Below are positions 15,771 to 19,854 of a stretch of 64,000 nucleotides of DNA, in pieces. The notes under the pieces were generated by a model. That model was not told the DNA's origin. It worked only from the letters and a program-made list of their open reading frames with translations, and ran no database searches. The DNA lies in the NCBI RefSeq assembly GCF_015291665.1, contig NZ_CP030048.1, positions 5,208,001-5,272,000 of the forward strand, in the 5' to 3' direction. How positions within the stretch are numbered: the first letter of the stretch is position 1; the number at the start of each line of letters is the position of its first letter. Position numbers and translations under genes: made by a program. The DNA comes from Bradyrhizobium sp. CCBAU 53338. Lineage in GTDB: Bacteria; Pseudomonadota; Alphaproteobacteria; Rhizobiales; Xanthobacteraceae.

Positions 15771-15874
15771 GCCGCGCACCTCGCTGCCGGCGGCAGCGTA
15801 AATCGAACGTGCCCGGCAATCCATCCCCTCGCGCGGCTCGTTTCGCATGAAGCGCAACCGATCGAGGGGTCGAC

Positions 15875-16207
15875 ATGGCTTATGTCTCAATGACCGGATT
15901 TCGCCCGAAGGGCATCGCGCGGCTGCCGATGTTCTGGTGGCGGACGGTCCGTTCTTTCACGCAGGCGCGGCGCGCGCCGGGAAATCTGTTGACGACGGGC
16001 AGGATCGTCGGCGGCGTCCATCACACGATGACGGCGTGGTCGGACCTCGCCAGCATGCGAGGATTCGTGGCGAGCGGCGCCCACCTGGCGGCCATGAAGA
16101 ATTTTCGGAAGCTTGGAACCGGGACGGTCTTCGGCTATTCCTGCGACGAAATTCCGGACTGGGACACGGTCTACGCGCTCTGGAAGCTGCATGGTCGCGA
16201 GGTTTGA
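15875..16207 (+). CDS. Small conserved hypothetical, possible dimeric alpha/beta barrel
   Basis: The 110-residue protein is rich in Trp, Arg and Met, with a central GGVHHTMTAWSDLASMRGFV followed by SGAHLAAMKNFRK and a C-terminal WDTVYALWKLHGREV. The pattern of a strand with HHT, a W-containing strand and an AMKxFRK helix resembles antibiotic-monooxygenase or DUF3291-like dimeric ferredoxin-fold proteins. That assignment is a guess. GAGGGG precedes the ATG. It is divergent from the hydrolase and upstream of the sigma factor, separated from it by the predicted ECF promoter. Confidence 0.7.
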   Translation: MAYVSMTGFRPKGIARLPMFWWRTVRSFTQARRAPGNLLTTGRIVGGVHHTMTAWSDLASMRGFVASGAHLAAMKNFRKLGTGTVFGYSCDEIPDWDTVYALWKLHGREV

Positions 16208-16292: not shown

Positions 16293-16322
16293 TGATCCGG
16301 ATGGCCGCGCCCGTCGTTATGG
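16293..16322 (+). promoter_or_regulatory. Predicted ECF promoter of the sigma/chrR operon
   Basis: TGATCC at 16293-16298, an 18-base spacer ending GTCG, and TTATGG at 16317-16322 stand 24 bases before the sigma ATG. TGATCC is the -35 element known for RpoE/ChrR-type (ECF11) sigma factors. The same layout recurs at 17664 and, on the minus strand, at 19020. Confidence 0.65.
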
Positions 16323-16346
16323 TCAGGACATCTCGACAGAGGCTCC

Positions 16347-16997
16347 ATGACGACCGGTCTTCGCGCTGTGAGCAGGCCCTTGTGGCGCAGCAAGCCTGCG
16401 GCGGCTCCCCGGCGGGATCGGCCTCGAAGATTTTCAGGCGAAAGGCCCAAGGCGACCGTGGAATGGGCTGACTTGATCGGACGCGTCGCGGCCCATGGCG
16501 ATCGGGACGCGTTCAGGCTGTTGTTCGAGCATTTTGCTCCGCGCGTGAAGGGATTCCTGGTCAAGACCGGGATGACCGCCGACGCCGCGGAGGAAATCGC
16601 GCAGGCCACGCTGCTGACGGTGTGGCGGAAGGCGGCCCAGTTCGACCCGGCGTCCGCAGGTGCGGCGGCATGGATCTTCACCATCGCGCGCAATCTGCGG
16701 ATCGATTCCGCAAGGCAGGCGGCGCGACGAGCCAGGACTGCGGAGAGCGCACAACGGGACGAGACGCCCGAGGTCGCGGATTCGCCGGAGACCATGATGG
16801 CGCGGAGCGACGACGTCTCGCGCGTGGAGGCAGCGCTGCGGCGATTGTCCGAGGAGCAATCCACGGTGATCCGGATGTCGTTTATCGAGGAGCAGCCGCA
16901 CGGCGAGATCGCCGAACGGCTCGGACTTCCGCTCGGAACGGTGAAGTCTCGCATCAGGCTTGCCATGGTGCGGCTGAGGGATCTCTTGGACGACTGA
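16347..16997 (+). CDS. ECF sigma factor, RpoE/ChrR type
   Basis: The 216-residue sigma factor has region 2 at about residues 50-115 (DRDAFRLLFEHFAPRVKGFL, AWIFTIARNLRID) and region 4 at about 160-212 (LPLGTVKSRIRLAMVRLRDLL). The basic N-terminal tail of about 35 residues is longer than usual and may be partly spurious; a later start is possible. The next gene, one base downstream, encodes a ChrR-like zinc anti-sigma, which places it in the ECF11 group that responds to singlet oxygen or related stress in Rhodobacter. A TGATCC-type promoter upstream implies autoregulation. Confidence 0.9.
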   Translation: MTTGLRAVSRPLWRSKPAAAPRRDRPRRFSGERPKATVEWADLIGRVAAHGDRDAFRLLFEHFAPRVKGFLVKTGMTADAAEEIAQATLLTVWRKAAQFDPASAGAAAWIFTIARNLRIDSARQAARRARTAESAQRDETPEVADSPETMMARSDDVSRVEAALRRLSEEQSTVIRMSFIEEQPHGEIAERLGLPLGTVKSRIRLAMVRLRDLLDD

Positions 16998-16998
16998 C

Positions 16999-17652
16999 AT
17001 GACCATCAACCATCACCCACCTGAAGATCTCCTGGCCGATTTTGCCGCCGGCCGGCTCGACGAGGCCGATCGCCTCGTCATCGGCGTTCATGCCGCACAA
17101 TGCCCTCGCTGCCGGCGTTTCATCGCCGCGATCGAGCAGCTTGCGGGTGCCGCGCTGGAACGGGCCGCTCCGGTCGCCATGGCAGACGACGCGTTCGCGA
17201 CCATCATGGCTGCGATCGACGCGCCGGAGGCGGCGCCCGCGCCGGCGCAGGCCGGGTCGCAACCGGTGCCGCTGCTCGACGACGACCTGCCGGAAATCCT
17301 GCTGCGTTGCCGGTTCGGCAAGAGCCGGCGCGTGGCGCCGGGCGTCAAGATGCAACCGATCGTCCTGCCCGGTGCGGACAAGTCGCGCGCGTTCCTGCTG
17401 TGGTCGGCACCCGGCACGCGCATGCTGGAACATTCGCACACCGGGACCGAGCTGACCCTGGTGCTCAAGGGCAGCTTCAGCCATCAGGGCGGCGATTTCA
17501 GGCCGGGCGATTTCGATTTCGGCGACGGCGAGGTCGATCATCAGCCGATCGTCGGCGGCGACATGCCGTGCCTGTGCCTTGTCGCCATGAGCGGGGATTT
17601 GCAGATGCACGGCTGGCTCGGCCGGTTGATCTCGCCCTTCGTGCGGCTTTGA
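16999..17652 (+). CDS. chrR: ChrR-like zinc anti-sigma factor with cupin domain
   Basis: The 217-residue anti-sigma has an N-terminal zinc-binding anti-sigma domain (residues 1 to about 75, HAAQCPRC giving the HxxxCxxC motif) joined by an Ala/Pro linker to a C-terminal cupin (about 95-200). Cupin metal ligands are likely in MLEHSHTGTELTLVLKG and GEVDHQPIVGGD. In Rhodobacter the N-terminal domain holds the sigma factor and the cupin is needed for release on singlet oxygen. It starts one base after the sigma stop, the usual paired arrangement. Confidence 0.92.
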   Translation: MTINHHPPEDLLADFAAGRLDEADRLVIGVHAAQCPRCRRFIAAIEQLAGAALERAAPVAMADDAFATIMAAIDAPEAAPAPAQAGSQPVPLLDDDLPEILLRCRFGKSRRVAPGVKMQPIVLPGADKSRAFLLWSAPGTRMLEHSHTGTELTLVLKGSFSHQGGDFRPGDFDFGDGEVDHQPIVGGDMPCLCLVAMSGDLQMHGWLGRLISPFVRL

Positions 17653-17663
17653 GCGTCCTGATG

Positions 17664-17693
17664 TGATCCAGTCGCGGCGCGCAGTCGTTCTCC
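17664..17693 (+). promoter_or_regulatory. Predicted ECF promoter of the second sigma gene
   Basis: TGATCC at 17664-17669, an 18-base spacer ending GTCG, and TTCTCC at 17688-17693 match the element before the first sigma gene. It lies in the 68-base gap after chrR. It predicts transcription start near 17700, which favours ATG 17721 over 17703 as the start codon. Confidence 0.6.
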
Positions 17694-17720
17694 TGACAAG
17701 CAATGCTGGAGGACGAGGCA

Positions 17721-18323
17721 ATGAGCTGCGGCGGACTGACGGCCCGGGACCCGATGATCGAACGTTTGAGCGATCTTCTCGCCCGGGTCGGGCACGGCGA
17801 CCAGCGCGCCTTCGCCGAGCTTTTCGCCGCGACGCGCAGCAAGCTGCGCAAGACAGCGCGTCCGATCGCGCCGGTCAGCGCCGATCTCGACGACCTGCTC
17901 CAGGACGCCTATCTGAAGATCTGGAAGCACGCCGCAAGCTTCGACCCTGCCCGCTCCTCACCTATCACCTGGATGTGCGCGATCGTGCGCAACACCGCGA
18001 TCGATGCTGTCAGGCTCAAGCAGATGCCGCTGGCGGATTTCGACGAAGCGCTGTCAGTCGCTGAAATCTCCGAGTCCGAGGACGCGTTCGACTACGATTT
18101 CGTTCAACCGATCGCGGCCCGCGCCATCCAGCGGCTTCCCGATCAACGGCGGCAATTGCTGTCGCGGGCCTATCTCGATGGCGAAAGCCGGTCGATGCTG
18201 GCAGAGCGCTTCGGCGTCCCGGTCGGCACGATCAAGACCTGGCTGCGAAGGACGGTTGTCTCGCTGCGCGAGGAATGCCTGGCATGTACCCCGGGCGTGG
18301 TGGCCCCGCAGCCTCATCGGTGA
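17721..18323 (+). CDS. Second ECF sigma factor
   Basis: The 200-residue sigma factor has region 2 (about residues 30-95: DQRAFAELFAATRSKLRK, DLDDLLQDAYLKIWKHA, ITWMCAIVRNTAIDAVR) and region 4 (about 125-185: LPDQRRQLLSRAYLDG, VPVGTIKTWLRRTVVSLR). It differs clearly from the first sigma and has no anti-sigma gene beside it. I chose ATG 17721 because GGAGG lies 8 bases upstream and the predicted promoter would leave almost no leader for ATG 17703. It is probably controlled by the RpoE-type sigma, making a two-step cascade. Confidence 0.88.
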   Translation: MSCGGLTARDPMIERLSDLLARVGHGDQRAFAELFAATRSKLRKTARPIAPVSADLDDLLQDAYLKIWKHAASFDPARSSPITWMCAIVRNTAIDAVRLKQMPLADFDEALSVAEISESEDAFDYDFVQPIAARAIQRLPDQRRQLLSRAYLDGESRSMLAERFGVPVGTIKTWLRRTVVSLREECLACTPGVVAPQPHR

Positions 18324-18397
18324 GCCGGCGCATGGGCCGATCCGGCGAGCCGGAGCAAGAGGCCGGGAACCGCAGGCGCTTCGCCGGCAACGGCGGA

Positions 18398-18508
18398 ATG
18401 AAGAACCAATACATCAATCTGGACCGCAAGGATGCGGTCGAGATGCGTGCGACGGGCAGCAGGCAGCGAGGATCGCGGAAGCCGCGACTCGGCCGCCCGT
18501 TCAATTGA
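18398..18508 (+). CDS. Possible 36-residue basic protein
   Basis: An ATG at 18398 opens 36 codons beginning MKNQYINLDRKDAVEMRAT and ending in a very basic tail. Its stop overlaps the stop of the convergent tspO gene within the palindrome TCAATTGA. The ribosome binding site is poor. No family is recognised, and it may be a chance frame in a 177-base gap. Confidence 0.25.
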   Translation: MKNQYINLDRKDAVEMRATGSRQRGSRKPRLGRPFN

Positions 18509-18956
18509 GCATGACGATGCTGGCATTGAGCAAGGTGGCGAATGCGACCCAGGCAAGATAGGGCACGAACAGCCATGCCGCCGTCCGGTCCGTCAGCCAG
18601 CACTCGACGATGAAGCCGATGATCGCCAGCAGCATCGCGACGATGATGCCGAGTGCGAGGCCGGTACGATGCCACGTGAAGAAGACCGGCGACCAGGCGA
18701 AGTTGAGCAGCATCTGCGCGGCCCAGAGCAGCATGGCTACGCCGTACGGAGACTGCCCCCAGGTTCGCGCGCCGGCGAGCGCGATCAGCAGGTAGACGAC
18801 CGACCACACCGGCGCGAAAACCCAGTTCGGCGGGTTGAACGGCGGCTTGATCAGCCCGGCATACCAGGGGCCAGGCAGGTTCGTGCTTCCGATCGCGAAG
18901 CCGGCTCCGAGCACGATGAGAACGAAAATGACGTGGGTCGTGAAGGATGTCCGCAT
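18501..18956 (-). CDS. tspO: TspO/MBR family tryptophan-rich sensory protein
   Basis: The 151-residue protein has five membrane helices and the family signature: GSTNLPGPWYAGLIKPPFNP near residue 24, WVFAPVWSVVYLLIALAG near 45, LNFAWSPVFFTWHR near 80 and a C-terminal LAWVAFATLLNASIVMLN. TspO binds porphyrins and modulates their export or photo-oxidative degradation. I chose ATG 18956 because the predicted promoter (-10 at 18991-18996) would leave almost no leader for a start at 18989. The promoter matches those of the sigma genes, tying tspO to the same stress response, which fits porphyrin photochemistry. Confidence 0.93.
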   Translation of the reverse strand: MRTSFTTHVIFVLIVLGAGFAIGSTNLPGPWYAGLIKPPFNPPNWVFAPVWSVVYLLIALAGARTWGQSPYGVAMLLWAAQMLLNFAWSPVFFTWHRTGLALGIIVAMLLAIIGFIVECWLTDRTAAWLFVPYLAWVAFATLLNASIVMLN

Positions 18957-18990
18957 GCCGGCTTCGCCGCGATGAGAGGGGCCCCTCACC

Positions 18991-19020
18991 CCTCAACGCG
19001 GCATCGTCAGGTTTGGATCA
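18991..19020 (-). promoter_or_regulatory. Predicted ECF promoter of tspO
   Basis: Read on the minus strand: TGATCC at 19020-19015, an 18-base spacer, then TTGAGG at 18996-18991. It sits 35 bases before the tspO ATG. The spacing and the TT of the -10 element are identical to the two sigma-gene promoters. Confidence 0.6.
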
Positions 19021-19026
19021 CATGGA

Positions 19027-19854
19027 TTATTTTTGCGGTCCGGACAGCGAGATGTCGCGCTCGGCGCGGAAGACGTTGCTGTAGAGATTGGCAATCCACT
19101 GCCGGCCGATCTCGGTCTTGTTGAGATAGCTGATCTCGGTCTGGATGTGCGGTGCGACGCTGTTCCAGTAGAATTGAGGATAGCGGTTCACAATGTCGGC
19201 CGGCGAGTCGTAGCCGAGTTGGCGGTTCATGCCGACCTCCTCGAACTCGTAGTAAAGCGCATTGGCCTTGCGCAGATAGTTGGGATCGCCGAGCTGGCCG
19301 ATGAAGTCGGCGGCGCGCAGGATCGAGGCCTCGTCGTCATATTCCTGGCCCTGGCGGGCCGGGAAGCGCGTTCCCTCGATGGCCCTCGCGACGCGCTCAG
19401 AGTCCACGCCGCGGATCGGCGGCAGCCGGCGCCGCACGAAAAGCTTCGACCGGTCAACGTGATACATCATCAGACTGGCATCGGATGCGCCGCGCGGCAG
19501 CGACACCTTGGTGCCGGCATCGTCGATCAGGAAGCCGTCTTCGTCGTCCTCCTCGAACAGGCCGCGGACATAGCCGATGTCGTGTGCGAGACAGGCGATG
19601 AGGACATGGAGGTAGTCGTCCGCCGCAAGGTGGGTGTGAAGATTCCGGCCCATCAGGATCGCCTGGGCCGCCAGCGTCACCAGCATCGTATGCTCGATGT
19701 TGTGGTAGAGCGCATCGCTGTTGCCGATGCATTCCAGCGCCGTGCGCGTCGATCCTTCCAGCACCCGGGCGTAGGACTCGTCGAACCGCCGACGCATGAA
19801 CGAGCCCAGCATCTTCTCCAGGGTCTCAGCGGCCAGTCGCGGTAACGTCATCAT
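19027..19854 (-). CDS. HD-domain metal-dependent phosphohydrolase
   Basis: The 275-residue protein has an HD-domain core with metal ligands in YHNIEHTMLV (about residues 50-59) and LAHDIGYVRG (about 89-98), then Asp in the DEASILRAADFIGQLG helix. This is the layout of HD phosphohydrolases acting on nucleotides or phosphodiesters. There is no GGDEF, response-regulator or sensor domain. The substrate is unknown. It begins with MMTLPRLAAETLEKML; the ATG at 19854 has no strong ribosome binding site. The tspO promoter lies directly after its stop, so the two genes are separate transcripts. Confidence 0.8.
   Translation of the reverse strand: MMTLPRLAAETLEKMLGSFMRRRFDESYARVLEGSTRTALECIGNSDALYHNIEHTMLVTLAAQAILMGRNLHTHLAADDYLHVLIACLAHDIGYVRGLFEEDDEDGFLIDDAGTKVSLPRGASDASLMMYHVDRSKLFVRRRLPPIRGVDSERVARAIEGTRFPARQGQEYDDEASILRAADFIGQLGDPNYLRKANALYYEFEEVGMNRQLGYDSPADIVNRYPQFYWNSVAPHIQTEISYLNKTEIGRQWIANLYSNVFRAERDISLSGPQK

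Follow-up and report, generated by a model that had tools for sequence, protein, structure and literature searches.

The locus described here lies in a 64,000-nucleotide (nt) stretch of the Bradyrhizobium sp. CCBAU 53338 genome (contig NZ_CP030048.1, positions 5,208,001 to 5,272,000; this whole stretch is called the window below). It comprises sigA, coding for an extracytoplasmic function (ECF) sigma factor of the RpoE type (sigma-E), chrR, coding for a zinc-binding anti-sigma factor, a second ECF sigma gene, sigB, and, on the opposite strand, tspO (Table 1). The sigA-chrR operon, sigB and tspO are each preceded by an exact copy of the motif TGATCC-N16-CGTT, and from sequence we infer that these sites are used as promoters.

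Table 1. Features of the sigA-chrR-sigB-tspO locus (window coordinates; ORF, open reading frame; aa, amino acids; promoters are predicted)
Feature	Position	Strand	Basis or remark
Degenerate copy CAATCC-N16-CGTT before 110-aa ORF	15817..15842	+	2 mismatches; absent from the sequence-only reading
110-aa ORF (DUF3291 in some sources)	15875..16207	+	
Sigma-E-type promoter TGATCC-N16-CGTT before sigA-chrR	16293..16318	+	exact, intergenic
sigA, ECF11-type sigma factor (RpoE)	16347..16997	+	Pfam sigma regions 2 and 4; PDB 2q1z_A
chrR, zinc-binding anti-sigma factor with cupin domain	16999..17652	+	TIGR02451; PDB 2z2s_B/2q1z_B
Sigma-E-type promoter before sigB	17664..17689	+	exact; 11 nt past chrR stop
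sigB, second ECF sigma factor	17703..18323	+	Pfam
tspO	18501..18989	-	PF03073, 135.3 bits (cut-off 24)
Sigma-E-type promoter before tspO	18995..19020	-	exact
HD-domain gene	19027..19854	-	profile match

The genes of the locus

Judged by its sequence, sigA-chrR is an ECF11 RpoE-ChrR pair. The top match of SigA in the PDB is RpoE of Rhodobacter sphaeroides (2q1z_A, 139 bits; the runner-up reaches 75), and ChrR scores 178.5 bits against TIGR02451 (cut-off 124.5) and falls short of the stricter equivalog NF051881 (172 of 300). The zinc-ligand positions of both ChrR domains are kept in alignments to 2z2s_B/2q1z_B; the first ligand of ChrR is presumably the one numbered H6. In the literature, which is cited here from excerpts throughout, the zinc ligands of ChrR are given as H31, C35 and C38, with H141, H143, E147 and H177 in the cupin domain (PMC6852236). 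Thus a ChrR-type gene downstream, both sets of zinc ligands, RpoE as the closest sigma factor and TGATCC-N16-CGT[AT] ahead of the operon together mark the pair as ECF11.

The TspO_MBR domain (PF03073) is clearly recognized in tspO; the NCBIfam equivalog NF047825 is missed (120.9 of 180). Translation of tspO more likely begins at ATG 18956 than at GTG 18989, because the GTG coincides with the expected transcription start, and in one related locus (L074) the tspO ORF starts at the ATG equivalent to 18956. Likewise, sigB perhaps begins at ATG 17721 rather than at 17703, since GGAGGACG sits between the two ATGs.

The motif in the window and in the genome

The sequence-only reading had ascribed to the sigma-chrR operon, the second sigma gene and tspO one shared promoter of the RpoE/ChrR type, namely TGATCC, 18 bases and a hexamer beginning with TT, without a further intergenic copy in the window. 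Indeed, TGATCC-N18-TT matches exactly at the three intergenic positions, all of them outside long ORFs, and the remaining three of the six matches in the window (1.46 expected) lie inside long ORFs (27961 on the reverse strand, 39225 and 53953 on the forward strand), so that the statement on further copies holds for exact matches. The proposed -10 element has to be revised: as CG precedes TT at all three intergenic sites, the common motif is better written as CGTT after 16 bases. This form agrees with the promoter type named, the published ECF11 consensus being TGATCC-N16-CGTA (PMC5507510).

TGATCC-N16-CGTT is found 3 times in the window where 0.09 copies are expected, and none of 100 shuffled windows reaches this number. 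A relaxed search (CGTW, up to one mismatch) returned 11 matches against 6.8 expected; as this is no clear enrichment, only the exact form is telling. In the whole genome (8.28 Mb) we counted 30 exact copies, compared to 5 of the reversed pattern; 21 of the 30 overlap mechanically picked ORFs, some of which are over-extended. The genome-wide count of TGATCC-N18-TT (229 matches) was discarded as hardly informative. A genome-wide survey of spacings 14-18 (120 matches) was also set aside, as the excess at 15 and 18, seen by inspection among the first 100 matches listed, was put down to reading-frame phase.

Conservation in related loci

Searching the genus for sigB (E up to 1e-40) gave hits in 34 of 146 genomes, and loci were taken from 30 of them, including the window's own; for the related loci the best 80 of 107 were used. 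The resulting 109 loci (the window's own excluded) contain 66 with sigA, chrR and sigB in tandem, of which 48 remain after dropping near-identical sigB genes. Of these non-redundant loci, 42 of 47 have the exact site ahead of sigA (one of the 48 is truncated) and 45 of 48 have it ahead of sigB; allowing one mismatch raises this to 46 of 47 for sigA and to 47 of 48 for sigB. The sole locus with more than one mismatch, at both sites alike, is from Afipia (L115). Other spacings between 8 and 24 do not occur, with two exceptions: N12 matches upstream of 7 sigA genes, each of them nested in CGTTCGTT of an N16 site, and a single N23 match upstream of sigB. On their opposite strand the same upstream stretches contain no exact site. 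Shuffled controls (960 base-shuffled stretches each) yielded 2 (sigA) and 4 (sigB) matches with up to one mismatch, and no exact match. The spacer is mostly free to vary; A or G always follows TGATCC, and T or C mostly follows CGTT. One typical Bradyrhizobium sigA-chrR-sigB locus (L078; 86%, 85% and 82% identity) comes from a record titled Frankia sp. RB7, whose title or assembly is probably wrong.

For tspO we sampled 31 genomes: 16 of the 48 genus genomes (out of 146) with a chrR match at E up to 1e-20, all of them with sigB, and 15 of the 98 others. Twenty of them contain tspO, with 23 genes in total. An exact site precedes all 11 tspO genes (or DUF2177-tspO units) located at chrR loci, at a distance of up to 83 nt in 7 genes and, ahead of DUF2177, 545-558 nt upstream in 4. 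What the sequences themselves show is the motif, how strongly it is conserved and that it is linked to chrR.

That the three copies arose by chance or are left over from a local duplication is highly improbable. The -35 hexamer alone is common, as the 229 genomic matches of the shorter pattern illustrate, but three full copies far exceed the expectation, and throughout the genus the ten bases of the two boxes are kept while the spacers vary, a conservation that already contradicts chance.

Further candidate members of the regulon

The sequence-only reading had limited the regulon to three promoters. While the second sigma gene and tspO stand as targets, the limit does not: 11 of the 30 exact genomic sites precede genes (ORF calling and Pfam), including those of a second rpoE-chrR locus. 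The genes linked to sites between 2.11 and 2.14 Mb are a sigA2-chrR2 operon, a DUF2177 gene, a fasciclin gene, a DUF427 gene together with the 67-aa ORF divergent from it, and a short folE-like ORF, at which the site at 2134938 is directed; a photolyase-related (DPRP) gene lies behind sigA2-chrR2 on the same strand. Exact sites are also found before folE (3.10 Mb) and the ferrochelatase gene hemH (6.54 Mb). The 19 other sites either overlap an ORF or lack an obvious gene downstream of them. Inspection of the genome's 30 sites revealed none upstream of rpoH genes. Not counted were a site near a cysK-like ORF (6663301), judged by eye to lie inside a coding ORF; the sites at 3431093 (before a sensor-kinase-like ORF) and 2384719, which may be intergenic but have no counterpart among the exact sites of G060, a near relative; and those at 2100456 and 6435104, which lie outside ORFs and were assigned no gene downstream.

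Further sites in relatives stand before folE (L085, L288, L301, L373), before a LON-domain gene (L281) and before a series of FAD oxidase, DUF1365 and cyclopropane synthase genes (L098). RpoE targets of R. sphaeroides include fasciclin, folE2 and cfa-type genes (PMC7074977), and the RpoE2 candidates of Shewanella include a LON-domain and a photolyase-related gene (PMC4336711). As the fasciclin, folE2, cfa, LON-domain and photolyase-related genes are all RpoE or RpoE2 targets or candidates elsewhere, the frame of the regulon is canonical.

The region of the second RpoE-ChrR locus (2096000-2146000; L039-L041) has a lower third-position GC content, with insertion sequence- or integrase-like ORFs nearby (by eye). 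A match to its chrR (59%) was found only in G060 among the 146 genomes. Its folE-like ORF (L041:4494-4916, reverse strand) is short and spans positions 2-123 of 179 in the GTP cyclohydrolase I profile.

The 110-aa ORF upstream of sigA has no Pfam or NCBIfam match. Its gene is present in 10 of the 16 chrR-positive and in none of the 15 chrR-negative genomes examined, and among the ten genomes having it (this one included) the site is exact in six and carries one mismatch in one more. The ORF is therefore counted as a probable ancestral member of the regulon.

The site before hemH (TIGR00109, 291 bits) lies at 6540467-6540492 and is directed at the gene, which is the single match in this genome at E up to 1e-40. 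In a set of 78 genomes, TGATCC-N16-CGT[TA] is present at hemH in 30 of 31 genomes with sigB compared to 10 of 47 without; this set combines 30 of 31 chosen genomes (one gave no locus) with 48 picked for a relaxed site, which inflates the share of sites in both groups. Across all 146 genomes, strict CGTT was counted in 23 of 34 with sigB and in 5 of 112 without (genomes with no relaxed form counted as lacking). It is the third base of a valine codon that decides, and GTA and GTT together make up 10.5% of the valine codons of the window. On the hemH tree of the 78 genomes, sigB status changes at least 14 times. In ten genomes (G016, G021, G022, G065, G079, G106, G115, G116, G117, G141) the hemH site is intact although a search at E up to 1e-20 finds no chrR; the gene may have been lost recently, or a different factor may read the promoter.

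Comparison with known systems

The pair resembles RpoE-ChrR of R. sphaeroides (ECF11) in the sequences of sigma and anti-sigma factor, in the zinc ligands, in the fasciclin, folE and (in relatives) cfa-type targets, and in a putative sigma cascade, which there runs from RpoE to RpoHII (PMC6852236, PMC7074977). It differs in that the second sigma factor here is an ECF gene beside chrR, and in that tspO has a direct sigma-E-type promoter, whereas an RpoHII promoter is reported for tspO of R. sphaeroides (PMC8307010); in R. capsulatus a crtIB-tspO operon is up under singlet oxygen (PMC7074977). Also unlike R. sphaeroides, no PF00124 reaction-centre gene was found in this genome.

Shewanella oneidensis RpoE2-ChrR likewise uses TGATCC-N16 promoters (with CGTA) and has ferrochelatase and photolyase-related targets; its TGATCC and CGTATT boxes are called similar to those of R. 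sphaeroides (PMC4336711). However, the ferrochelatase target there is the paralogue hemH2, in an operon with pgpD, whereas the hemH of this genome is the sole match, and tspO is not mentioned in the excerpt of that paper (PMC4336711). In a Shewanella hemH1 mutant, rpoE2 and hemH2 transcripts rise, which the authors attribute to porphyrin stress sensed by ChrR (PMC6664582). PSPTO_1043-ChrR of Pseudomonas syringae shares the consensus TGATCC-N16-CGTA, but its -10 box ends in A instead of T and the published target table is largely different (PMC5507510). In the same genus, B. japonicum EcfQ and EcfF/OsrA are also ECF systems, inducible by reactive oxygen species. Yet for EcfF the promoter reads GTAAC(g,a)-N14-15-(c,t)CG(t,a), its anti-sigma factor OsrA belongs, unlike ChrR, to the DUF1109 proteins and contains six transmembrane domains, ecfQ has a different promoter as well, and the excerpt mentions neither TGATCC nor tspO (PMC3420878). 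Among the titles and abstract openings of the papers listed (most subscription papers being outside this scope), we found no Bradyrhizobium ChrR system with sigB, no direct sigma-E promoter of tspO and no hemH under sigma-E in Bradyrhizobium.

Interpretation and alternative explanations

We consider it likely that the locus forms the core, under its own control, of a sigma-E/ChrR (singlet-oxygen) system of the ECF11 type which induces sigB and porphyrin disposal in a bacterium without a detected photosystem. Promoter use, signal, order of the cascade and feedback are parts that we infer. ChrR would hold sigma-E until singlet oxygen, by analogy to Rhodobacter and plausibly arising from porphyrins in light, frees it; as no PF00124 gene was found, cellular porphyrins are a plausible light sensitizer. 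Freed sigma-E would then initiate transcription at TGATCC-N16-CGTT, raising its own operon together with sigB as a second tier, in a cascade like that from RpoE to RpoHII, and also tspO, hemH and folE, along with the genes for repair and membrane functions at the second RpoE-ChrR locus. TspO and ferrochelatase may in turn reduce free protoporphyrin IX, the likely sensitizer, and so close a negative feedback loop. In light of the Shewanella hemH1 precedent and the lack of a detected PF00124 gene, we read the circuit as one of porphyrin disposal, membrane and DNA repair, with sigB as second tier. The observation of the sequence-only reading is thus confirmed and its interpretation upheld in part: autoregulation is supported by the site before sigA in related loci, and the porphyrin link is strengthened by the site before hemH.

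Several observations weigh against this reading. The site before the 110-aa ORF has decayed in this genome, and all 12 tspO genes away from chrR loci (7 in chrR-positive and 5 in chrR-negative genomes) lack an exact site within 900 nt. The others concern hemH, whose site, 133 nt ahead of the gene, falls inside a MAPEG gene of divergent orientation. The site is kept in ten genomes without sigB, and among the genomes lacking sigB CGT[TA] exceeds the expectation from codon usage (11 of 42, p 0.003), while three genomes with sigB (G091, 100% complete; G096, 75%; G099, 81%) lack even the relaxed site. A test of independent pairs on the hemH tree is borderline (9 well-supported pairs: 3-6 in agreement, none opposed, ties otherwise; median p 0.06). 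The hemH site could be a coding coincidence kept by the divergent gene, and hemH no target at all; besides the position of the site and its retention without sigB, the -35 half is widespread in genomes lacking sigB, too. We think this improbable, as the discriminating base is synonymous and rare valine codons are used in 30 of 31 sigB-positive genomes; moreover, the Shewanella ferrochelatase gene hemH2 depends on RpoE2 (PMC4336711). Since the site tracks sigB, yet the pair test is borderline and genomes without sigB exceed codon usage, hemH is a probable but not a proven sigma-E target.

The role of sigB is likewise open to more than one reading. It forms a starred clade of its own, separate from sigA (closest paralogue in this genome 42%), directly adjoins chrR in all 34 sigB-positive genomes of the genus (by coordinates), and chrR is the only anti-sigma gene seen beside it. 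Being an ECF sigma gene like sigA, and standing under the promoter in nearly all loci as well as beside chrR, sigB might act as an amplifier rather than as a second tier, its product recognizing TGATCC-N16-CGTT promoters just as SigA does. Two facts make this rather unlikely: residues S201/R202/L205 of SigA and T179/W180/R183 of SigB (window-protein numbering), which we take to lie in the -35 recognition helix, are invariant within each family and different between them, and distant sigB-like loci (L109-L123, L125-L153) have no exact site. The difference in these residues favours a separate SigB promoter, so that sigB would be a second tier with a promoter of its own. Alternatively, ChrR may also bind SigB, one signal then freeing both sigma factors. 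We give this a minor chance: the constant adjacency of chrR is what it builds on, and the region 2 residues of SigB appear in alignments unlike those of RpoE and SigA. For it speaks also that, of the two class-33 sigma factors, one has a predicted anti-sigma gene nearby (Masloboeva et al., PMC3420878), which might be the gene considered here; SigB is a candidate for class 33 (ECF33, the EcfQ group).

Some further observations concern sigB relatives. The locus of the nearest paralogue (L043) has an adjoining RskA-like anti-sigma ORF and a flagellar ATPase-like ORF nearby (both by eye). In other alphaproteobacteria (L126, L129, L131-L133, L137, L138, L140) sigB-like genes lie near fasciclin genes. 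Four genomes (G055, G039, G061, G133) show one TGA within the sigB match, which may indicate a pseudogene or an alignment running beyond the stop.

Returning to the sigma-E/ChrR circuit with sigB as second tier, a more specific proposal seems to us evenly balanced between right and wrong: that sigma-E/ChrR without a photosystem forms a porphyrin-disposal loop, with the sole ferrochelatase and TspO as direct targets and a dedicated ECF sigma factor in the place of RpoHII, and with a hemH promoter to which synonymous positions of a divergent gene contribute and which tends to decay where sigma-E/ChrR is lost. The analysis names a concrete loop, from porphyrin and singlet oxygen over sigma-E to TspO and ferrochelatase, and a hard-wired step from sigma factor to sigma factor, which is open to simple genetic tests. 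It suggests that the singlet-oxygen response, first known from photosynthetic bacteria, may serve porphyrin safety in soil and root bacteria that lack a photosystem.

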